Shown here piece by piece: positions 4,189 to 36,333 of a stretch of DNA of 39,694 nt. Below the pieces are notes generated by a model, which ran no database searches, had not been told where the DNA came from, and worked only from the letters and a program-made list of their open reading frames with translations. The DNA is taken from positions 1-39,694 of the IMG/VR virus record IMGVR_UViG_3300044961_000223; one strand, given 5' to 3'. The position numbers and the translations under genes are program-made. The DNA is from a virus. Within the stretch, counting starts at the first letter, position 1. Each line of letters opens with the position of its first letter.

Positions 4189-4430
4189 TTTACCGGCCCC
4201 GCGAACAGGATCGCATCAGCATAGACAAGCTCGCCGCATCGCTCATATACAAGCGACGTGAAGACCCGCCCCGGCGCACGTCTGTGCGTCAAAAATGCAA
4301 TTGCGACAGGCTCAAAAGGCGTGCTGTGCTTGAGTGAGACAACTCCGCGCAGCTTGTAACCGCGCGCGGTCAATACGTTATTTTTGTTGACGCGCTCGGC
4401 GTCATTCGATATGCTCTCTTTGTTCTTCAT
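4185..4430 (-). CDS. Small protein of unknown function
   Basis: An 81-residue protein beginning MKNKESISNDAERV. The middle looks like a small beta domain (RGYKLRGVVSLKHSTPFEPV). A strong AGGAGA ribosome site precedes the ATG at 4430, and the stop overlaps the polymerase start as ATGA, so it probably sets polymerase translation by coupling. The 58-nt gap upstream is one of the few real gaps in the operon and holds a GC-rich hairpin. No family is recognised. Confidence 0.65.
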   Translation of the reverse strand: MKNKESISNDAERVNKNNVLTARGYKLRGVVSLKHSTPFEPVAIAFLTHRRAPGRVFTSLVYERCGELVYADAILFAGPVK

Positions 4431-4451
4431 CGGTTTCTCCTGAAGTTCATT

Positions 4452-4482
4452 GCCCGACGCTGCTACCCGCCGGGCTTTTTTT
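4452..4482 (+). terminator. GC hairpin followed by seven T on the plus strand
   Basis: GCCCG at 4452-4456 pairs with CGGGC at 4471-4475 around a 14-nt loop, followed by T 4476-4482. On the plus strand this has terminator form, although all genes here are on the minus strand. It may stop antisense transcription. On the minus strand the same hairpin sits just before a strong ribosome site and could shape the mRNA instead. Confidence 0.3.
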
Positions 4483-4488
4483 ATGCGC

Positions 4489-5253
4489 TCACCAGATCAA
4501 GTCTGGGTTAATGTCCGCTGACTCATCAGCCGCCGCCGGTTCAATGCCCGCGAAGGGGTCAAAACCGCCAATGCGCTCGCCATCGCGCACTTTACGCAGA
4601 CCGTTCAGATATGCAGTCACGCCCGCGTTGCCGTTCACTTCATAAACTGATAGTGTCAACGCAACGTCAGCATAGACGCCTGAGTAAAACTCACGCTCGA
4701 TGAAGTGCGGCTCGACTGCACGTCCGGTCGCGTCTTGCAACGCAATCGGATACTTCTCAGTGAATGCGTCGTTTTTGTTCTCGCGCATAGCAGATTTTTT
4801 CACCTGCCAGGTCAGGCAGTCAGCAAGCTCTGCACGCACCTCGCCGCGCGAGTTCGGCCGTCCGCCGTCTTTTAGCAGCGAACCCTCAACGTCAATCGCA
4901 GTCGCAGTCTTGAATATCTGCATCTTCTCAGCGCTATCGACCACTTTTTTATTCAGCGCGATTGCCTGCTTTATCGCATCAGCAAGCTGACGCTGAAAAC
5001 CCTGAGCGCCCTTTTTTGGCACTAAGATTGTCACGCTCTTTGTACCCTTGCGCCAGTCAGTTTTGTCTTCACGAAACTCTTTCACGAAAACCCACGTCAA
5101 ACGCGCATTGCGTACAACACAGCTTACGCCCTTGTCGGTCGCGCGTTGCAGAACAAGCTGCGGCGTGCCAAGCAGCGCAACTGTCGCAGAAGGCGCTGTG
5201 TCGATTTTCTCGGGCTTTGTCTCTTTCTTTGTTTTTGTCAATGTTTTACTCAT
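4489..5253 (-). CDS. Single-stranded DNA-binding protein, DUF2815-like
   Basis: A 254-residue protein with a Lys/Thr-rich N-terminal tail (MSKTLTKTKKETKPEK) and a body resembling the DUF2815 family found next to family A polymerases in phages. Visible features are VVRNARLTWVFV (about 55-66), the KKSAMRENKNDAF stretch, HFIEREFYSGVYADVALTLS near 190 and an acidic end (GFDPFAGIEP then ESADINPDLIW). Acidic tails are common in ssDNA-binding proteins and recruit partners. The start at 5253 has GAGGT 8 nt upstream; the longer frame upstream overlaps the nuclease gene and lacks a site. It follows the DUF2800-type gene directly, the usual order for these two. Confidence 0.75.
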   Translation of the reverse strand: MSKTLTKTKKETKPEKIDTAPSATVALLGTPQLVLQRATDKGVSCVVRNARLTWVFVKEFREDKTDWRKGTKSVTILVPKKGAQGFQRQLADAIKQAIALNKKVVDSAEKMQIFKTATAIDVEGSLLKDGGRPNSRGEVRAELADCLTWQVKKSAMRENKNDAFTEKYPIALQDATGRAVEPHFIEREFYSGVYADVALTLSVYEVNGNAGVTAYLNGLRKVRDGERIGGFDPFAGIEPAAADESADINPDLIW

Positions 5254-7520: not shown

Positions 7521-7755
7521 TCATGTCGCATCTACCGGGCGGAACCAGCGCCAGCAGTGCTTCTTTGTAGCTTCATTGTACACCTGCACTCGACGATACC
7601 CCGCCTTTTTGAGCCACGCTGCCAGGCGCTTGTCGTCGGCACGCGGGCCGGCGGCAGCGACAAAAACTGCCAGTTCGCGCACAGACACGGAATCGACAAA
7701 AAAATGGCCCTTTGCGCTTGTTGTGGGCGAGAGTAAGAAGATCGTCAAGTGTCAC
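7521..7755 (-). pseudogene. Stand-alone primase C-terminal-type module, split by an apparent +1 shift
   Basis: Two overlapping frames together encode one protein. The GTG at 7755 overlaps the previous stop (GTGA) and starts MTLDDLLTLAHNKRKGPFF. After a run of seven T (plus-strand A 7698-7704) the other frame continues VDSVSVRELAVF, then LAAWLKKAGYRRVQVY and CWRWFRP. With one T fewer the frames join into about 77 residues that align end to end with the PrimPol C-terminus, including AKQGPF against NKRKGPF and LAVWLYGRGY against LAAWLKKAGY. The cause may be a sequencing slip, a mutation or programmed +1 shifting. A TTG start at 7748 could also give the downstream frame. Likely DNA-binding, by analogy with winged-helix C-terminal domains of phage primases. 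Confidence 0.6.
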
Positions 7756-8099
7756 TGCTCAGCATACCTCGCCCGCACAAGCCGAACAAACTCTTTTTGT
7801 GATAGTTTTGTCCAGGCTCGAATATGTCTGCCGGGTGGCCAAACTTCACGGCACGTGTAGCCGTTCGATCTCAACCATTTTGTGATTTTAGGGCGCGTGA
7901 TATACTGCTTCAACGCACCTGAATTTTGGCGGGCGTATGCCAATAAAGAAGAAATCAGAAAAAACGCTTGTTGTGTCGGCGCGTTGCGCTCGCGTGCGAT
8001 AGCTGACAGATAGCTGTTTATGTCGCTTTCGCTCGGCTTGACTTTTGGCGGGCGGCCGCGTTTTTTCTTTGGCTGTGTTGTTTTTTGTTTTGATTTCAT
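7752..8099 (-). CDS. AT-hook protein with a primase C-terminal-type module
   Basis: A 115-residue protein. Residues 1-25 are basic and contain a classic AT-hook, KKKRGRPPK, which binds the minor groove of AT-rich DNA. Residues 30-115 match the last part of the PrimPol/helicase at 34171-36333: between LRSNGYTCRE...RAWTKL here and LYGRGYQNRE...RAWTKL there, 14 of 24 positions are identical. It is the first gene left of the repeat-filled control region. It starts at the ATG at 8099 and no good ribosome site is seen; longer in-frame starts enter the operator repeats and look unlikely. A role as regulator or origin-binding protein of the adjacent repeats is inferred. Confidence 0.7.
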   Translation of the reverse strand: MKSKQKTTQPKKKRGRPPKVKPSESDINSYLSAIARERNAPTQQAFFLISSLLAYARQNSGALKQYITRPKITKWLRSNGYTCREVWPPGRHIRAWTKLSQKEFVRLVRARYAEQ

Positions 8100-8183
8100 G
8101 CGCCATTTTTGTGGTGATAAAGACGACCTGTCAAGGTTTTTTTGATTTTTTCTCGAATTTTTTCGTTTCCCATGTGGGACAAA

Positions 8184-8205
8184 ATATCCCACGATCATGG
8201 GATAT
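8184..8205. promoter_or_regulatory. 22-bp inverted repeat, operator-like
   Basis: ATATCCCA and TGGGATAT are perfect 8-bp arms around a 6-bp CGATCA centre, a dimeric-protein binding site by form. It is the most symmetric site of the TCCCAC cluster and lies about 85 bp upstream of the AT-hook gene. Confidence 0.65.
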
Positions 8206-8334
8206 TCTGCTGGTTTTTAGGGTGATAAAGCGTGTTTTGGTTTTGCGCAGCGCGCAATACGCGCCTGGCGCTATGCGATAGCTTATGTTATCCCACGACA
8301 TTTTTACGATTTTCGTGTGGGCGGGATGTCAATT

Positions 8335-8363
8335 TTGATCAATAAAATCAATGGTTTTCTATA
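8335..8363 (+). promoter_or_regulatory. Candidate rightward late promoter
   Basis: TTGATC (8335-8340), a 17-bp AT-rich spacer and TCTATA (8358-8363) precede the late operon. The tandem ATCCCACATCCCAC site begins at the end of the -10 box, where a bound protein would block initiation. The match to consensus is moderate and no other candidate in the region is better. Confidence 0.4.
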
Positions 8364-8595
8364 TCCCACATCCCACTAATAAAAATAAAACTTTCCAGAG
8401 AGTATTTTTTTTTTGAGAGAGAGGGTGGCAGGCGCAGAATAAAAAAACACTCCCCCTATATGCGACCCAAAACGGGTCGTGGGATACGGGATAAACACCA
8501 CTACTTGCCCCTCGCCGCAAGGCTATTTCGCCCGAACCTCGCATCGCAGTGCGTTTTCTACTTGACGCGCGCAGAAAAACGTCTTTTTTGCGTGC

Positions 8596-9306
8596 GTGGC
8601 GTTTTTACAGGGCTTGTCCGGCCTTGGCGACTCTGTTTTTTTGTATCCAACCGCTGCGCAAGCAGCGGAGCGCGGGCATCTTACTATCGGCACGAATTAT
8701 CCGGAAGTTTTTGCCGCGCTGCCTTTTCGCGACCGCGTGTCTTTTGTTCCTTTTGCGCGGTCAAAAGTGAACGTGAGCTACACGAGACAGCGCAACTCGA
8801 ATTATTTTGAGGACTATTTGAGAAGTTCAAAGATTGAGACGCAATTTTTTTACGACGTGCAGAAACCGTCTGAAACAGTTAGCGCGATTATGTGTGAAGC
8901 ACGGAAAAGCGGTAAAATTGTTACTCTTGTTCATCCGCCTTTGCCAGCAAACATGCACGTATCGCGAGCAGATTATTCATTTGCGCCGATGCGCGAGCGT
9001 TTTGTGGAGTGGCTGAGCGCGCGCAAAGATAGAATGTATTTTATATGCGCGCAAGATGTATCTGGCTATACATTTGACGTGCGTGTTAAACTCACCTTGC
9101 CTGATTATTTGGCGCTTTGTGGCGTCGTCGATCACATCGCGAGTCAATGGGGTCATTTACTTCCTATCGCGCAGGGTTTGGGCAAAGTCTTGACTGTATT
9201 TAATCCTCGGGGGCCGCTCAGCGGTTTTGCTCGCAATCTGACGACTGAAATGTTACTTGTCAGAGAGTCGCGCCTGCGTAACCCTGCGCCGGTTTTCATA
9301 TGGTAA
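8596..9306 (+). CDS. GT9-like glycosyltransferase (short)
   Basis: A 236-residue protein with the outline of a heptosyltransferase-like (GT9) GT-B enzyme. The N-terminal LSGLGDSVFLYPTAAQAAERG has the GxGD loop and following helix, and the C-terminal VVDHIASQWGHLLPIAQGLG matches the nucleotide-sugar site where GT9 proteins have a D-x-G-x-x-H-L-A segment. It is shorter than typical GT9 enzymes (about 320-350). It starts with a GTG at 8596 and no clear ribosome site. It overlaps the methyltransferase gene and opens the late operon. The target could be virion protein or host surface sugar; sequence alone does not decide. Confidence 0.5.
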   Translation: MAFLQGLSGLGDSVFLYPTAAQAAERGHLTIGTNYPEVFAALPFRDRVSFVPFARSKVNVSYTRQRNSNYFEDYLRSSKIETQFFYDVQKPSETVSAIMCEARKSGKIVTLVHPPLPANMHVSRADYSFAPMRERFVEWLSARKDRMYFICAQDVSGYTFDVRVKLTLPDYLALCGVVDHIASQWGHLLPIAQGLGKVLTVFNPRGPLSGFARNLTTEMLLVRESRLRNPAPVFIW

Positions 9307-9965
9307 GTGATAAATGCCCTGTGTGCGAAAAGTCCGCTTTTGTTAGCTGGCCGAAAAGTCGGCTGGCTTCTTGCGGGGTCTGTTCACACGTCTGGCAACC
9401 TGATTTTCAGCAGTTCGATTACGGCGATAATTATGTCAAGAATTATGCAGACAAACCGACGCGTGAAATGGCTTTTTTGCGGCTTGGTTTTTTATCGGCA
9501 TTCTTTCTGCCGCGCGGGGCTCTGCTCGATGTCGGCGCCGGTGACGGCGCTTTTGTGCGCGTTGCGCGGCAGGCGGGGTTTGACGCTGTGGCGCATGACG
9601 TAGTGCCCCGCGCGGACGATTTACCTCGCGTAACTGAGCTTCGCGGCGATTATAGCGTCGTGACGTGCTTTGACTCTTTGGAGCACTTTGCTAATCCTCA
9701 CGAAATATTCGCCCTGCGCCCGGTTTTGTTTGTCGTAACAATACCTCACAGGCCGCGCGATTTTTCAGACGACACGGCGATGATATGGCGGCACTACAAA
9801 CCCGATGAGCATTTACACTACTTTTCTTCGCGGTCGCTCGAATTGCTTTTTCACCGTAGCGGATACGAAATCATGGGAGCGGCGCCCGTTGAAGACGCGA
9901 TACGCAAAGGCCCGACAACGCCGAACACGATGACTTACGTATTTTCACGCAAGAGGGCGACATGA
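9300..9965 (+). CDS. Zinc-ribbon SAM-dependent methyltransferase (Methyltransf_23-like)
   Basis: A 221-residue protein. A zinc ribbon with Cys6, Cys9, Cys25 and Cys28 opens it. A class I methyltransferase domain follows, with motif I LLDVGAGDGAFVRVA near residue 80 and VTCFDSLEHFANPHE near 120, the pattern of Methyltransf_23 proteins that act on sugars or small molecules. HYKPDEHLHYFSSRSLELLF is a further typical stretch. It overlaps the neighbours on both sides (ATGA at 9962-9965). A sugar O- or C-methylation role within the GT cassette is inferred. Confidence 0.7.
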   Translation: MVSDKCPVCEKSAFVSWPKSRLASCGVCSHVWQPDFQQFDYGDNYVKNYADKPTREMAFLRLGFLSAFFLPRGALLDVGAGDGAFVRVARQAGFDAVAHDVVPRADDLPRVTELRGDYSVVTCFDSLEHFANPHEIFALRPVLFVVTIPHRPRDFSDDTAMIWRHYKPDEHLHYFSSRSLELLFHRSGYEIMGAAPVEDAIRKGPTTPNTMTYVFSRKRAT

Positions 9966-11365
9966 TCGACCTTTACACGCCTTCCGGCATCGGTGATATT
10001 TATTGGGTTTTGCAAAAGCTCGCGAGGGCAGCGAACGCGGCAGGCGAGCGTTTCAGGATTCATACTCCGCCCGGTAGCGACATTAAAATGTCGCGAGGCA
10101 AGTTTTTAGAGTATATCGACTGTGTCGAGAGCGTTGCGCCTGATGGATTGCCTTATCCTGAGTTAGTCAAGCGCGCGGCGGCTGAGGGGCATTATGCTGC
10201 ATTGCGTCCGGTCATGTATTGTGAAGCAAATACATGGCTTGAAGCTGGACGGCGGCTTGAAACATATCTGCCCGCGTTTCCTACCGAGTTTATTTTAAAC
10301 TGGCAGATTGATGTTGAATCGCAGCGGCGCGCGCTCATGCATTTAAAGCCAGGCGAGAAAAACATTGTCGTGTACACGTCTGGCATTGCGAACAACGAAT
10401 CGAAATCGACGGGCACGTGGTCTGCGGCTGATTGGGTTGCAAGGGTTTCAGAGTTGCGGGCAGACCCTGAACTAAATCTGATTTGGATCGGCGCGCAATA
10501 CGATGCGGACATTTTGCCGTCGCTGCACGGGTTTTTTGATTCTGTGCTGATTGACCTGCCTGCGCCGGTTATCGTCTCGCTGCTTAGGCATTGTGACGGG
10601 TTCGTCTCGTATCAAAGCGGGTTGTCTTGCATATCAGTTATCGAATCTATACCGACACTGATGCTTTACTTTCGCAAAATTGCGGCGCTCACAAAAACCT
10701 TTAACCCGCCGACCAGCAAAGATTACCACCCGGTTTTCTTCGACGAGAAGCCCCGTTTTCGGGCGTGGGTTGACGCGTTGCCTTTGCGTCATGTTTTAGG
10801 GCGAGGCGAGGTAAAACGCGACTACACGTTTTATGTTAATGAGAACATCGAGCGCACAGAGGCCGATTGGCTCGCGAATGGTTGGATTCACGACGATCAA
10901 TATGAAAGCATAAAATATCTGTCCGGCTCTTTGCTTGAAGTTGGTTGCGGGTCAGGGTGTTTAGCGCAGCGGCTAAGCAATGTTGAATATGTGGGCGTCG
11001 ATCAATCGGCCCCGCTTTTGGATTTGGCGCGCGCGAAGAATCCGGGCAAAAAGTTTATTGTGGGTGACGTGCGCGTTTTGCCGGTTGAACATTTTGACCA
11101 TGTGTGCGCGTTTGGTTTTCTAAAACACTTTTCACTTGCGGAGCATGACGCAATTTTCGCGGCATTAGCCGTGCGCGCGCGCAAAACGCTGACGGTCGAA
11201 ATGCCCGTGCGCCCGGTTGAATATGAAGACCCGGAGCACCCTTTCCCGCACACGTGGGCGAGTGAAAAACGGATTGCGGCGAACGCGGCAAAGGCAGGTT
11301 TTGAGATCGTCGCGACGGCGGATAATCGCAGCGGCGAAAAGATTTTTCACATGGTGAGGCGTTGA
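9962..11365 (+). CDS. Fusion of GT9-like glycosyltransferase and SAM methyltransferase
   Basis: A 467-residue two-domain protein. Residues 1-280 look like a GT-B glycosyltransferase: an N-terminal PSGIGDIYWVLQKLA loop, ADWVARVSELRADPELNLIW in the middle, and CDGFVSYQSGLSCISVIESI as donor site. Residues 290-467 are a class I methyltransferase with motif I LLEVGCGSGCLAQRL, acidic VGVDQSAPLLDLA and IVGDVRVLPVEHFDHVCAFG. The start is coupled by ATGA overlap. Fusion of sugar transfer and methylation in one chain, next to separate copies of each activity, suggests one pathway adding a methylated glycan. Confidence 0.65.
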   Translation: MIDLYTPSGIGDIYWVLQKLARAANAAGERFRIHTPPGSDIKMSRGKFLEYIDCVESVAPDGLPYPELVKRAAAEGHYAALRPVMYCEANTWLEAGRRLETYLPAFPTEFILNWQIDVESQRRALMHLKPGEKNIVVYTSGIANNESKSTGTWSAADWVARVSELRADPELNLIWIGAQYDADILPSLHGFFDSVLIDLPAPVIVSLLRHCDGFVSYQSGLSCISVIESIPTLMLYFRKIAALTKTFNPPTSKDYHPVFFDEKPRFRAWVDALPLRHVLGRGEVKRDYTFYVNENIERTEADWLANGWIHDDQYESIKYLSGSLLEVGCGSGCLAQRLSNVEYVGVDQSAPLLDLARAKNPGKKFIVGDVRVLPVEHFDHVCAFGFLKHFSLAEHDAIFAALAVRARKTLTVEMPVRPVEYEDPEHPFPHTWASEKRIAANAAKAGFEIVATADNRSGEKIFHMVRR

Positions 11366-12496: not shown

Positions 12497-13042
12497 ATGA
12501 CGCAAGCGCAGTTGGCAAGAAAACTTGGCGTCACGCAACGCAGCGTCGCCGAAGCGATCGAGACAGGTCGCATCGTTTTGAACGCCGACGGCTCTTTGCC
12601 GGATGACGCAGAAAAACAATTTAATGATAACACAGACCCGGTGCGCTCGATGAACGGGCGCAAACTCGGCGGCAAAAAATCGTCTGCGGAGCCGGCGTCG
12701 TTCATGTCTGTAAAAATTAGAAAGGAGACAGCGGCAGCCCAGCTCAAAGAAATTGAACTTGCGAAAGAACGAAATAAACTTTTGGAAAAAGAAGCAGTGA
12801 AGGAAGCTGTTTTCAAATGGGCGCGGACAATACGCGATGCGGTTCTCGCAATACCCGACCGTGTAGCCGCTGACCTCGCGGCGCAAATTCTTGCGATGAA
12901 TAGCACAGGCAAAAAACTAAGCGCAAACGAAATCGAAAGAATCGTTCGCCAGGCGTGGGCGAAAGAATCGCGCGCGGTTTTAGTTGCTATCGAAAAAACG
13001 CCAAAACCAAAGAATAAAAAACGCGATGAAAGCGAAGCGTGA
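12497..13042 (+). CDS. Terminase small subunit (Nu1-like)
   Basis: A 181-residue DNA-recognition subunit of the packaging motor. The N-terminal MTQAQLARKLGVTQRSVAEA is a winged-helix/HTH as in lambda Nu1. A basic linker (GRKLGGKKSS) and long charged helices (AAAQLKEIELAKERNKLLEK) with an Arg-containing IRDAVLAIPDRVA segment follow, the usual pattern of this family. It overlaps the large-subunit start. It would bind the packaging start site on phage DNA, which was not located. Confidence 0.8.
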   Translation: MTQAQLARKLGVTQRSVAEAIETGRIVLNADGSLPDDAEKQFNDNTDPVRSMNGRKLGGKKSSAEPASFMSVKIRKETAAAQLKEIELAKERNKLLEKEAVKEAVFKWARTIRDAVLAIPDRVAADLAAQILAMNSTGKKLSANEIERIVRQAWAKESRAVLVAIEKTPKPKNKKRDESEA

Positions 13043-14936
13043 TAATGTTTTATCGGACGTCATTTTTGATGACGCAGACGAAATTTTCCGCGATGCTGTA
13101 AATGCAGGTTTAACGCCTGACGCGTCGTTGAGTGTCGCCGCGTGGTCAGACACGCATCGTGTTTTATCGAGCACAGGTTCAGCCGAGCCTGGCAAATGGC
13201 GAACGTCGCGCACGCCGTATTTAGCGGCAATTATGGACGCGTTGACGGTCGGCTCGCCATATCAAAAAATCGTGTTAATGAAAGGCGCTCAGGTTGGCGC
13301 GTCTGAAATGGCCGTCAATTTTTTGGGGTATGTCGCCGACGTGTCACCAGGCCCGGCGTTGTATCTCATGCCGACACTCGACGCGGCGAAAGAGTTTTCA
13401 AAAATCCGCATTGACCCTTTGATTGCAGAAAGTGAAGTTTTACGCGTTAAGGTCAAAGAGTCGCGTTCGCGTGACAGCGGCAACACAACTTTACTCAAAG
13501 AATTTTTGGGCGGCTATTGGGCGTTTACGGGCGCAAACTCAGCGGTCGGCCTGCGCTCGAAGCCCGTTCGTTTTGTTGTTATGGATGAAATCGACGCGTA
13601 CCCCGGCTCTATTGAGGGCGAGGGCGACCCGGTGAATTTAGCTTACGCGCGGACTCGCACGTATGGCAACCGGCGAAAAATTTTTATCGCGTCGACACCG
13701 ACCGTCGCGAATGAAAGCAGAATTGAAAAAGAGTTTGAGGAAACAGACAAGCGTTTTTATTTTGTGCCCTGCCCGCACTGCGGGCATAAACAAGTGCTGC
13801 AATGGCCGCGGTTGAAATGGACAGACAATGACCCGGACACCGCGCATTATGTTTGCGAATCATGCGAAGAAAAAATTTACAATCACGATAAAAACGAAAT
13901 GCTTGCGGCGGGCGAATGGCGCGCGACGCAGGAAAGCAAAGACCCGGTGACGATCGGCTTTCACTTATCTGCGCTTTATTCGCCTGTGGGGTGGTATTCT
14001 TGGTCTGACGCTGTGCGTGATTTTTTAGCGGCGAAAGAAGACTCGTCACTTTTGCGCGTTTTTGTAAATACTGTTTTGGGTGAAACATGGGTTGACCGCG
14101 CCGATGCCCCCGACTGGCAATTGATTTACGCGCGCCGCGAGGCGTATCAAATCGGCGTTGCACCTGCGCCAGTGGTTCTGCTCACTGCTGCCGCTGACGT
14201 GCAAAAAGACCGTATCGAAATTTTAGTTCAGGGGTGGCATAAGCACGGGCAGTATAGTGTAGACTATTTTCAACTGCTTGGTGATACAACGCAAAATGCT
14301 GTGTGGGAGCAACTTGACGCGTGGCTGGAAAAGCCTATTGAGCACGAAAGCGGCGCGGAAATGCGTTTGCGCGCGTTCGCGATTGACTCAGGATATTTGA
14401 CCAGCAAGGTATATGCGTGGGCGCGCAGACATCGCCCCGATTTTGTTTACGTTATGAAAGGTGTGTCGTCTGATTTGCCAGTGGGCCAGCCGCGCCTGGT
14501 CGATTTCAATTTCGAGGGTAAGCGGATAACGAACGGTGCGCGATTTTGGCCGATTGGCGTAAACCCGATTAAACGCGAATTGTACACGCGTTTACGTTTG
14601 GGCCTGACAGAGGCGGGCGAGTATCCGCAAAACTACATACACTTTCCCGAATACCCGCCTGAATTTTTTAGGCAGATCACGGCGGAGAGTTTGCAGCAAA
14701 CCGGCAAAAATCAGCGTAAGGCGTGGAAAAAACATTATGAGCGTAACGAAGCTTTAGATTTGCTGGTCTACAATCGCGCGCTCTCGATTATTTTGGGGCT
14801 CGATCGTTTACGCGATGCTGACTGGCAAACGTTAGAAAACCGCGTGCAGCGCGAGAAACAATCCGCCCCTGAAGCACAAAGGCTGATTCGTCGGCCCGCC
14901 CCGCGCCGGGTGATTTCTCGGGGCATTGATTTATGA
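13026..14936 (+). CDS. terL: Terminase large subunit (GpA family)
   Basis: The packaging ATPase and nuclease, 636 residues from the ATG at 13026 (a longer frame to 12984 is less likely). The ATPase domain shows a Walker A-like MKGAQVGASE near residue 86, a Walker B VVMDEIDAYP near 184, and a zinc finger CPHCGHKQ...CESCEEK near 248-282, a GpA hallmark. The RNase H-like nuclease begins with TAAADVQKDRIEILVQGW near 389 and has AIDSGYLTSKVYAW near 450. GpA terminases normally go with cos-type ends, so packaging from cohesive ends is likely but unproven. Confidence 0.93.
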   Translation: MKAKRDNVLSDVIFDDADEIFRDAVNAGLTPDASLSVAAWSDTHRVLSSTGSAEPGKWRTSRTPYLAAIMDALTVGSPYQKIVLMKGAQVGASEMAVNFLGYVADVSPGPALYLMPTLDAAKEFSKIRIDPLIAESEVLRVKVKESRSRDSGNTTLLKEFLGGYWAFTGANSAVGLRSKPVRFVVMDEIDAYPGSIEGEGDPVNLAYARTRTYGNRRKIFIASTPTVANESRIEKEFEETDKRFYFVPCPHCGHKQVLQWPRLKWTDNDPDTAHYVCESCEEKIYNHDKNEMLAAGEWRATQESKDPVTIGFHLSALYSPVGWYSWSDAVRDFLAAKEDSSLLRVFVNTVLGETWVDRADAPDWQLIYARREAYQIGVAPAPVVLLTAAADVQKDRIEILVQGWHKHGQYSVDYFQLLGDTTQNAVWEQLDAWLEKPIEHESGAEMRLRAFAIDSGYLTSKVYAWARRHRPDFVYVMKGVSSDLPVGQPRLVDFNFEGKRITNGARFWPIGVNPIKRELYTRLRLGLTEAGEYPQNYIHFPEYPPEFFRQITAESLQQTGKNQRKAWKKHYERNEALDLLVYNRALSIILGLDRLRDADWQTLENRVQREKQSAPEAQRLIRRPAPRRVISRGIDL

Positions 14937-19763: not shown

Positions 19764-20233
19764 ATTATTCTTTAAGTAAATATCGCGAAATCCGCGCGGC
19801 GATTGTCGCCGAATTATCAAACGTTGCAGAACTTGTCAGCGTTCACGACGCGCGGGTGAAACCTTTTTCTGACGAACTGACTGATTACCCACTTGCATCG
19901 GTTTTTACCGGCAACGACTCGGCAGAGTACAGCGCCGACGACGCGAACCTGCGCCGCGATTATGATGTTGATATCGTTGTCATTTCAAAAGGCTATGACG
20001 TTGCCGACGTTGCCAGCGCAGACGATTCTTTCATCGAAGCGTGCGACAAAGCGACGGCGGCAATTGAAAATGCGCTAACTAAATTTCGTTTTTCGCTCGA
20101 CGGTTTGATTTATCGGCTGACTTATCGCAGGTCGTCTCAGGTCATTGATGAAGATGGCGAGTATTTTACGTGTGTTCGTATTCTAACTTACAACGCGCAT
20201 TCTATTGAAAAGGTAGTTGACGCAGATGTTTGA
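19760..20233 (+). CDS. Tail terminator or tail completion protein
   Basis: A 157-residue alpha/beta protein. It starts MNYSLSKYREIRAAIVAELS and includes LASVFTGNDSAEYSADDANL, a DVDIVVISKGYD strand and a long helix (FIEACDKATAAIENALTKF). Size and position between the connector and tail tube match tail terminators such as gpU. It overlaps the connector stop by ATGA. Assignment is by position and fold pattern. Confidence 0.65.
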   Translation: MNYSLSKYREIRAAIVAELSNVAELVSVHDARVKPFSDELTDYPLASVFTGNDSAEYSADDANLRRDYDVDIVVISKGYDVADVASADDSFIEACDKATAAIENALTKFRFSLDGLIYRLTYRRSSQVIDEDGEYFTCVRILTYNAHSIEKVVDADV

Positions 20234-20969
20234 GAACAAACGCGTTTTTGTCATTGGTTCCGGCCCGTCGCTCGTCGGTTTTGATTTTTCAAGACTTGAC
20301 GGCGAAAAAGTCGTCACAATAAATCACGCTTACGCACTGTGCAGACATGATTTGCACGTGTTTTACGACACGTCTTTTTTGACCGAGGCAAAGCCGCACG
20401 GGTACGACCCGCGCGCGCATACCGCAAAAGTGCTGTGCAGGCGTGATTTAGTCGTGCCGAAAAATGAGAATATCATCGAGTTTAGACGCGCGGCGTTTGT
20501 TACAGAACGTTTCAAAGACGGGCTTTATATGGGCAGATCGTCGGCCTTGCCTGCAATCAATGCCGCATTGATTTACGGCGCGTCGGAAGTTTATCTGCTC
20601 GGTATTGACTGCCGTTTTTTATCTGCTGCCGAGGTTCGCGAAGCGGCGCGCCGCAACGGAAACCCGCGCGCGGCCGAACAGCTACTCGCCGGCGCAGATT
20701 TCGCGCATCACGTGTCGCAGCAAACAGTTGCGCACACAATGAGCGCGCGTGAAAAAGAGTCGAAATACGCTGACATGACGCGTCAGTTTGACGCATTTAT
20801 CGGCCGGCCTGTTTACAATTTGTCCCCGTTTTCTGCTCTTTCGCTGCCGTCAAAAAGTATTGACGACGTGTTAAAGCGCAGCACGAAAGACTCGTTTGGC
20901 GATAAAGTCAGTAAGCAATTTTTGAAAACTAAAAATGACGGGGAAACCCGCGAAAAAGAGGAGATTTAA
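20226..20969 (+). CDS. MAF/DUF115-like putative glycosyltransferase
   Basis: A 247-residue protein opening with MFENKRVFVIGSGPSLVGFD, the GxGPSL loop of the MAF (DUF115) and 6-hydroxymethylpterin pyrophosphokinase-like group. A second Rossmann-type region contains YMGRSSALPAINAALIYGAS and EVYLLGIDCRF. MAF proteins add nonulosonic-acid sugars to flagellin; related phage copies are poorly understood. It overlaps the tail terminator by 8 bp and precedes the tail tube gene, an unusual site for a sugar enzyme. Together with the cassette at 8.6-11.4 kb it suggests virion glycosylation. The catalytic role is uncertain. Confidence 0.6.
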   Translation: MFENKRVFVIGSGPSLVGFDFSRLDGEKVVTINHAYALCRHDLHVFYDTSFLTEAKPHGYDPRAHTAKVLCRRDLVVPKNENIIEFRRAAFVTERFKDGLYMGRSSALPAINAALIYGASEVYLLGIDCRFLSAAEVREAARRNGNPRAAEQLLAGADFAHHVSQQTVAHTMSAREKESKYADMTRQFDAFIGRPVYNLSPFSALSLPSKSIDDVLKRSTKDSFGDKVSKQFLKTKNDGETREKEEI

Positions 20970-29664: not shown

Positions 29665-29991
29665 TTAATCACTTTTCAAAAAAACCGCGCGGGCGATTTC
29701 GGACGGCTGCCAGTCTTTTTTACATGCCCGCGCTTTAATTATCATTGACTGCGAAATTGTAATTTCGCCGTGGTATTCAGCAGAGCTCTCGCAATGCGGC
29801 GCCGCACCGTCCATTGTATAAACTATCTTATCATAAGAGGCGTAAGACACCACTTGGATTTTTTGCGTAGTTGTAAACAACGCCCCGCCCGGTACGATTT
29901 CAGGACGTGACGTTAACGGAGAGCCGTCGGGCACGTTCGCAGCACACCCCGCAAAAACCACCCCGCAAAGAATCAATATAAATTTTTTCAT
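29665..29991 (-). CDS. Lipoprotein with a CHB_HEX_C-like domain (moron)
   Basis: A 108-residue protein encoded against the late operon between the two adhesin genes. A lipoprotein signal MKKFILILCGVVFAGC puts the mature Cys at residue 16 (lipobox FAGC, slightly off consensus). The mature part matches the small beta domain found at the C-terminus of chitobiase and hexosaminidases: GGALFTTTQKIQVVSYASYD, IVYTMDG, then ITISQSMIIKARACKKDW. GGAG precedes the ATG. It would sit in a host membrane; by analogy with other phage lipoproteins it may block superinfection or mask the receptor. No strong promoter was found upstream. Confidence 0.7.
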   Translation of the reverse strand: MKKFILILCGVVFAGCAANVPDGSPLTSRPEIVPGGALFTTTQKIQVVSYASYDKIVYTMDGAAPHCESSAEYHGEITISQSMIIKARACKKDWQPSEIARAVFLKSD

Positions 29992-34170: not shown

Positions 34171-36333
34171 TCAGTACGGTATATCGTCGATTTCTTTCTT
34201 CACTTCATTTTTCAACGCGTCTAAAAACTGCGTGTGCTCTAACTTTGTCCACGCGCGCACGTGCCGCCCGTGAACATGCGCCTCGCGATTTTGGTAACCT
34301 CGTCCATAAAGCCAAACAGCTAAAGCTCTGTTCGTCGCATAGCGCGCGCATGATTGCGCGTTGAGTTCAATATGCACGTGCAGATCATGCAGCGTAAAAT
34401 ACTCACTTGCAAACGGCCCTTGTTTTGCAGCTTCGCATTCTGACAAGAAAGCTGACAGATCAGATTCTGACGCGCGCGCCAGCATTTCCCACCCCGCTGT
34501 TTTTGGCGGGCGGCGGTGCGGGTTGAACGACGATACGTCAACTGTCAGCAGATATTCTCTGACTGCCTCCGCATCGTTTTCGATCATGCGAAATAATCTG
34601 GTATAGTATTCTTGTTCGCGCGGGTCAGTGTTATTGTAGATCACAAACAAACGCCTGTCTTCACGATCACTCTTTATCGCGTCGATCTTATTCGACAGAA
34701 AAATAAAATTTGCTGCGTTCGTTGTCGTGTAAGTGCGCGCATACTTTGTTTCGACGCGCAAACGCTTCTCGCTGATTAAACTCTTAAGACGCGCCATAGC
34801 CTCTTTCTCGCCGGTCTCGACCTCGTGCGCGACGACCCATAATTTTTCAGCAAGATAGTCATTGTATTTCGATAGCAAATCGTGTGACATCACGTGTGAT
34901 ACGTTCTGCTCGCCGCAAATACGTGCCAAAAACTCAGCAAAAAACGACTTCCCGACGCCGGTTTTAGGCGTGATAATCAGCGGCGACCACATAATCTTTT
35001 TACCAGGGTTTTGCAAAGCGTAAGCAAAAAACTGTAAGAGCGTCTGTTCTTCTTGTTCACTTGTCGTAATGTAAGCAATATGCTCACGAAAAATTTTTAC
35101 TGCCTCTTTCGCGCGCTCAGATTCCGGGTCAACTGGCGCAAGCTCAGGTGCGCGGTAAGCGTTGTAGTATGTCACCCCGCCGCGCACAAAGATTTTCTCT
35201 GTCATGTCAGGCGCATAGTCTAACTCATCGACAGTATTCACCGCCCCGGCAGCGATCAAATCGGCAAAATCAATACGCTCGCCAAGCTGCGAAATCAGAT
35301 ACAAATTGATTTGTTCAATAGATGTCAGAACGCGCGTCGTCGTCGTATCGAGCAGACGAACAGCGCTGTGGCAATAGACCCACGCACTTAGAAGCTCGCG
35401 CGCGCGGTTTATTAGCTCAAACTTCCTCAGCTCTTTCTGTCTCTGCTTGTCTGTGAGCGATTCGCTTTTTCGCAACAAATCGCCAAAATCGCCGCGACGA
35501 TACTTAAAAGCAGACGCTATCTGATGCTTTATGACTTTTTCGCTCTCAGGCGGTTCGTGGCGCAGATCACTGATTCGCTGCGCAAGTGCTACTGCGTCGC
35601 TTTCAGGCACGCCCCACGCATGGCAGTCAAGCCCGATGAAAAAAAGTTCCTGCGAGCGGCCATCGCTCGCGACGCGCACAGGCTTTTTTGAGTACAGAGC
35701 AAAAAGATAGTCAACGATGCTATTCACACGTTGCGGCGCCTGGGCCGGCGGTTGCGAAATTAAAGCAGATAAAAAAGCAAAACGCTGCTCGAAGCTGACG
35801 CGCTCTGTCTGCTCGCGGACATAGACAATTTCATAACCAGGCGACCTAACTCCGTTTTTCCGGTGCGAAAAATCCGGCAAACGGGCGACGCGCGCGCTAT
35901 CGTGTGCAGCACGCTCTTTTGACTGCGTAAGCGTCAATAACTGCTTAACGACCGCAGAGTAAGACGCTTTGTTCGTTTCGTTCTCGTCGCGCGGCTCAAA
36001 AACAAAATAAAGGTGATGGTGCGTGCTATCGCGCGAGCAGATTATGTCAGCGTGTTCGTGCGCCCAAACGGGCAGTGCTGCATTATCAATGTCAACAAAT
36101 ACAGTTTGCTGTCTCGCGACATTGCCTTTTTTGTCGCGTGGGTTTACGCCCGCGCAAGGGTACAACTGCGCGTCGAGTACAATATCGCGCATTTGCGCAA
36201 GCGTGTCGCGTGCTGCGTCTATGCCTGAGCACAATTTTTTGAGCGGCCTGGCAGCGGCGCCGCGCTCTGGCAGAAAGCGTAATTCTATTATGTCGTCAGG
36301 AAAGAAAAGATATGAGAGCAGATCAGCGTTCAT
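34171..36333 (-). CDS. PrimPol-SF3 helicase fusion (primase-helicase)
   Basis: A 720-residue replication initiator. The N-terminal archaeo-eukaryotic primase/PrimPol domain has FVDIDN near residue 80, SRDSTHHHLYF near 100 and HDSARVARLPDFSHRKNG near 145. The superfamily 3 helicase has Walker A ITPKTGVGKSFF near 457, LWVVAHEVETGE near 495, motif C NFIFLSNK near 544 and the arginine pair DREDRR near 557. The design resembles the NrS-1 phage primase-polymerase. The last 90 residues (about 625-715) form a module repeated in two separate small proteins at 7.5-8.1 kb. GAGGA precedes the ATG at 36333. Confidence 0.88.
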   Translation of the reverse strand: MNADLLSYLFFPDDIIELRFLPERGAAARPLKKLCSGIDAARDTLAQMRDIVLDAQLYPCAGVNPRDKKGNVARQQTVFVDIDNAALPVWAHEHADIICSRDSTHHHLYFVFEPRDENETNKASYSAVVKQLLTLTQSKERAAHDSARVARLPDFSHRKNGVRSPGYEIVYVREQTERVSFEQRFAFLSALISQPPAQAPQRVNSIVDYLFALYSKKPVRVASDGRSQELFFIGLDCHAWGVPESDAVALAQRISDLRHEPPESEKVIKHQIASAFKYRRGDFGDLLRKSESLTDKQRQKELRKFELINRARELLSAWVYCHSAVRLLDTTTTRVLTSIEQINLYLISQLGERIDFADLIAAGAVNTVDELDYAPDMTEKIFVRGGVTYYNAYRAPELAPVDPESERAKEAVKIFREHIAYITTSEQEEQTLLQFFAYALQNPGKKIMWSPLIITPKTGVGKSFFAEFLARICGEQNVSHVMSHDLLSKYNDYLAEKLWVVAHEVETGEKEAMARLKSLISEKRLRVETKYARTYTTTNAANFIFLSNKIDAIKSDREDRRLFVIYNNTDPREQEYYTRLFRMIENDAEAVREYLLTVDVSSFNPHRRPPKTAGWEMLARASESDLSAFLSECEAAKQGPFASEYFTLHDLHVHIELNAQSCARYATNRALAVWLYGRGYQNREAHVHGRHVRAWTKLEHTQFLDALKNEVKKEIDDIPY

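Follow-up and report, generated by a model that had tools for sequence, protein, structure and literature searches.

In phage P4, the winged-helix domain of the alpha protein binds the origin repeats (PMC4234260), and cnr controls copy number in the plasmid stage (PMC8628076). The origin-binding subunit of a replication machinery can also be a separate protein, as is RepC of RSF1010 (PMC4234260). The truncated Rep protein RepR′ of plasmid pIGRK opposes its initiator at the same control region (PMC6854812), and the small protein PrpA occupies iterons, blocks the initiator and lowers copy number (PMC7848731). The fold, the primase tail and small proteins opposing initiators are already known. 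We found no description in the open-access literature of primase tails repeatedly freed as genes beside control regions.

The DNA analysed here, called the window throughout, is the viral IMG/VR record IMGVR_UViG_3300044961_000223 at its full length of 39,694 nucleotides (features in Table 1). Like P4 gp-alpha, which uses the domain to bind origin repeats, its primase-helicase carries a predicted winged-helix domain, but it is of the PrimPol (AEP) type, and we found no sequence link between the window proteins and P4. The small protein of the window is a clear sequence copy of its own initiator's tail. The RepR/RepR′ pair of pIGRK would be a parallel in that a truncated form of the initiator opposes the initiator; however, both come from one gene with an internal start, whereas the window has a separate, diverged gene. 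PrpA would also be a parallel, as a small DNA-binding protein that blocks an initiator, on the iterons of a conjugative plasmid, but it is another kind of protein, the antitoxin of a toxin-antitoxin pair.

Table 1. Features of the control region, the module copies and the parent primase in the window
Feature	Position	Strand	Evidence
Third module copy, more divergent, interrupted; start GTG 7755 overlapping the free gene's TGA	7521..7755	-	profiles, codon use
Run of seven T on the coding strand (T7); reading frame changes here	7698..7704	-	sequence, codon use
Free module copy, 115 aa, open frame up to 8198; first of the leftward replication genes	7752..8099	-	BLASTP, shuffles
Winged-helix domain of the free copy	7752..8033	-	AlphaFold2 mean pLDDT 95.5; best PDB Z 7.7
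Basic N-terminal arm, AT-hook-like core KKKRGRPPK	8034..8099	-	sequence; Pfam AT_hook 13.8 bits
Promoter-like TTGACA-18-AAAAAT	8105..8134	-	consensus match only, 10/12
TATCCCAC repeat, part of dyad ATATCCCA-N6-TGGGATAT at 8184-8205	8185..8192	+	
Control region, divergent and largely non-coding, flanked by the leftward replication genes and the rightward late genes	8199..8595		gene layout; GC-skew sign change
TATCCCAC repeat	8289..8296	+	
TATCCCAC followed directly by ATCCCAC	8362..8376	+	
AT-rich stretch, 19% G+C	8376..8412		
TATCCCAC repeat, opposite strand	8479..8486	-	
C-terminal winged-helix module of the primase, residues ~622-735	34171..34515	-	AlphaFold2 mean pLDDT 92.0
PrimPol-SF3 primase-helicase (parent protein), 735 aa	34171..36378	-	DUF5906 E 4.8e-19; phrog_1156 (phage DNA primase) E 4.6e-37

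The protein encoded at 7752-8099 aligns with residues 623-723 of the primase (BLASTP 63.9 bits, E 7e-17, 32/101 or 32% identical), and the local score of 148 is far above those of 2000 shuffles (mean 25.8, maximum 52). In the best block, GYTCREVWPPGRHIRAWTKLSQKEF against GYQNREAHVHGRHVRAWTKLEHTQF, 14 of 25 residues are identical. When the free protein was searched against the whole window, the primase tail was its sole other match (E 1e-15), and profile A2, built without the free copy, recognises it with an E value of 5.0e-5. The recurrence of the primase tail in this gene, first proposed in the initial annotation, is thus borne out, and the similarity is significant by profile as well. At the level of sequence, these comparisons show that the gene duplicates the C-terminal module of the phage's primase and adds a basic AT-hook-like arm to it. 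The arm of this protein, earlier designated an AT-hook protein, has the RGRP core, but its Pfam AT_hook score lies below the curated cut-off of 17.4 bits. Pfam detected no family above its curated cut-off for the free copy and no primase or helicase domain in it, whether taken as 115 or up to 148 aa. The gene is separate and 26 kb away from that of the primase, so that its protein is not an internal-start product of the initiator. No close relative of the window phage was found with the free copy, the primase, the terminase or the pair as a locus query, nor by DNA similarity or tblastn of the free copy.

In itself the module is nothing out of the ordinary, and many phage primases end in it. 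It can be aligned across Vibrio, Sphingomonas, Achromobacter, Rhizobium, Pseudomonas, Salmonella and other phages, and a profile search found it in 36 of 42 phage records at E <= 1. The window primase has the DUF5906/SF3 helicase core; in the DUF5906/SF3 primases of Casjensviridae, Vibrio, Rhizobium and other phages the homologous module is present, but inside the primase. What is unusual is the module as a free copy, not the module itself. The genome is a mosaic: the large terminase (12984-14936) is ~50% identical to that of Wolbachia phage WO and 45% to those of Rhodobacter phages, and the closest matches of the primase, at ~25-30% identity, come from other phage groups. Among the terminase relatives (~50% identity), a set that had no positive control, no primase relative was detectable.

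AlphaFold2 predicts, with high confidence, that the primase tail and the free copy share their succession of helices and strands and both form a winged helix with a two-stranded wing, as the initial annotation had supposed. Winged-helix chains head the PDB comparison of both models, with Z up to 7.7 for the free copy and 7.2 for the primase tail, values below 8 that alone are little proof and may reflect a common arrangement. RFX5 is among the winged-helix matches of both (Z 6.0 and 6.2), several full-length viral primases are found among the weak structural matches of the free copy's model, and the P4 origin-binding domain is absent among the matches listed for the window modules. Between free copy and primase the predicted recognition helix is poorly kept (2/10 residues), and the DNA targets of the two copies may therefore differ. 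The wing hairpin is well kept (11/18 residues). RFX proteins read DNA with the wing, and in light of this the conserved hairpin of the models would make shared targets possible.

The octamer TATCCCAC occurs in four exact copies, all within 8185-8486, with 0.15 expected in the whole window, and three further near-copies lie in the same control region. The position of the free copy beside a repeat-bearing control region is thus as initially described. The GC skew switches sign at the control region, a switch that gene direction alone could cause. A transcript from the promoter-like sequence would start near ATG 8099, ahead of which there is no clear ribosome site, a hint of a leaderless message. 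Two adjacent genes with methyltransferase matches (9300-11365) open the rightward genes. Just ahead of terL, a candidate small terminase gene (12497-13042) matches Cro/HTH_3 weakly. Among the head-tail genes there is one that matches a phage family labelled alpha-2,3-sialyltransferase and is weakly MptE-like (20217-20969). After the rightward late genes comes a leftward gene with a chitobiase C-terminal-like domain (29665-29991).

A further copy of the module was initially placed in 7521-7755, after repair of one base. With one T of the T7 run skipped, the segment gives a pairwise p of ~1e-4 in shuffles; read across T7 it matches profile A11 at 17.2 bits and profile A2 at 14.6 bits, scores that none of 1000 shuffles reached for either profile. 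The segment is a real module since these profile scores beat all shuffles, while the uninterrupted GTG frame alone has no match to the module profiles. Its body lies in the frame of the free gene, beyond that gene's stop, and GTG 7755, its natural start, lies in another; codon use fits the GTG frame over the first ten codons, but from about codon 20 onwards it fits the other, and T7 lies in the intervening stretch. In the sequence as it stands the frame breaks at T7, so the third copy cannot count as an intact gene. The DNA therefore holds two free modules, only the first of which is an intact gene as sequenced, and of the two small proteins announced in the initial annotation one is retained as an intact protein and the other becomes an interrupted frame. 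Either the third copy is decaying, or its product depends on a +1 shift or on transcript slippage at T7, or an assembly error has broken it. Read-through of the TGA, joining 7752-8198 to 7521-7748 in one frame, was not adopted as the main reading, since ahead of T7 both the homology and the codon use are in the GTG frame.

Searching the 42 phage records with profiles for second copies of the module yielded the window, G060 (E 2.3e-16; L131-L134 alike) and G064 (E 8e-7), the only places where a free module was seen; weak second matches in W07 (E 0.006) and W20 (E 0.0097) were left out of the count. The G060 copy (L106, ~4418-5203) is followed by terS across ~316 bp. L131, L132, L133 and L134 carry the same free gene at the same place, and L137 a fragment of it. 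In G060 and L131-L134, the five contigs of the L106 type, the free protein has 244-277 aa, with 51-84% identity across contigs, and its gene lies before the terminase genes, a non-coding stretch of ~315-350 bp separating it from terS. There is no more than a hint of a second, N-terminal module in the free proteins of this type (L133 11.2 bits, 0/1000 shuffles as high; L134 3.4 bits; hhalign probability 19%). The G064 free copy (L130, 7843-8460, minus strand, 205 aa) is encoded directly ahead of terS and terL; the opposite flank of its gene is a divergent non-coding region of ~456 bp (8461-8916) with dense nested inverted repeats (arms of 46, 36 and 23 nt), a candidate origin or operator array. 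Beside this gene TTACAATGGG has seven near-copies, with two elsewhere in the 14.7 kb. A TAGTAAGGT-like motif, occurring 2 to 5 times beside the free gene, is weak in the L106 group. Every free gene thus adjoins a non-coding region, which is clearly repeat-rich in the window and in G064; the search for stand-alone copies next to repeat arrays that the initial annotation proposed thus led to the G060 (L106) group and G064, both with the free gene beside a non-coding region, the repeat being strong in G064 and weak in the L106 group. Neither group gave a hit in scans of bacterial genomes, and a scan for relatives of the G064 copy returned only itself. In L138 (MG592551), four stretches annotated as CRISPR spacers lie inside a phage gene (9727-9944) and are probably a short in-gene repeat.

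The free copies formed one group in 0% of 200 bootstrap trees, and well-supported branches force three label changes. The free copy of the window is joined to the window primase at 99/95 support, and the free copies of the L106 group nest within a clade that also holds primases from their lineage (99/100); the G064 copy sits on a long branch and its placement is unsure. Since the two best-supported cases each join the primases of their own lineage, the module was freed as a separate gene at least twice, and we claim no more than this minimum because the tree rests on 126 columns.

We give about an even chance to the reading that the free copy is a DNA-binding regulator which restrains initiation and tunes the divergent promoters, in a manner close to that of phage P4. 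The initial annotation, which had the free copies recognise the same DNA as the initiator, is supported in part, namely in the homology, the predicted fold, the position and the existence of other phages with free copies. Origin binding by the primase would go through its C-terminal module, as in P4 gp-alpha, and the free copy would bind the same or related repeats, that is, those shared with or derived from the initiator's sites. Lacking primase and helicase, it would regulate negatively, in two ways. Its own leftward promoter and the rightward one would be repressed or tuned, and at the repeats it would compete with the initiator or form mixed dimers with it; initiation would drop as the free product accumulates. 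This reading is supported by the homology, by the same predicted fold with winged-helix matches for both modules, by repeats confined to the adjacent region and by the GC-skew sign change there, for which gene direction might suffice. The other free copies also speak for it, since they adjoin non-coding regions at the border between replication and packaging genes, have arisen more than once and in G064 have a strong repeat array. P4 alpha, PrpA and RepR′ offer parallels. It is weakened by the divergence of the recognition helix, the weak L106 repeat and the lack of a P4-domain match among those listed.

The divergence of the recognition helix from that of the primase would suit a plain transcription regulator that borrowed the module and reads its own operators, with no effect on initiator or origin. 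The free copy is first in its operon and adjoins dyads, and the free genes of G064 and the L106 group are just ahead of terminase genes. However, the wing hairpin GRHxRAWTKL is almost unchanged, and random borrowing does not favour repeated origin from the initiator of the same lineage; we regard this explanation as possible, if rather doubtful. The repeats and the AT-rich stretch adjoining the free gene could instead point to a positive factor that coats the repeats of the origin and assists in loading or positioning the primase-helicase, on the model of RepC of RSF1010, which shows that separate origin-binding subunits exist (mentioned in PMC4234260). This is unlikely, as the primase keeps its own module, so that recognition needs no loader, and most relatives do without a detectable free copy. 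The free copy might also serve the switch to packaging, for instance as a factor that strips the initiator off the DNA or that marks the DNA for terminase. Its gene is immediately ahead of terS in G064 and next before it, across the non-coding stretch, in the L106-type contigs, but in the window it lies 4.8 kb from terL, on the other strand and among replication genes, which makes a packaging role quite improbable. That the free copy is merely a functionless duplicate of a gene end, already decaying, as the interrupted third copy might indicate and with no close relative known for a conservation test, is highly improbable given that the first copy is an intact frame with its core kept and a basic arm added, and that the L106-group protein is kept across contigs and in place.

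Returning to the regulator that restrains initiation, the occurrence of the same arrangement in unrelated phages suggests that replication and gene switching are coordinated in this way repeatedly. More tentatively, and with less than even confidence, a freed initiator tail beside the control region could be a recurrent, independently evolved device of tailed phages in which one module sets both origin firing and the early and late promoters. If true, this would be a simple circuit coupling the start of replication to the late-gene switch, which is poorly understood in most phages, with the same DNA-reading part on the initiator and on a free regulator. Independent origins, if true, would show evolution reaching the same solution repeatedly. 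The proposal also provides a concrete hypothesis for free proteins that match no curated family, and it points to candidate replication origins in unannotated phages.
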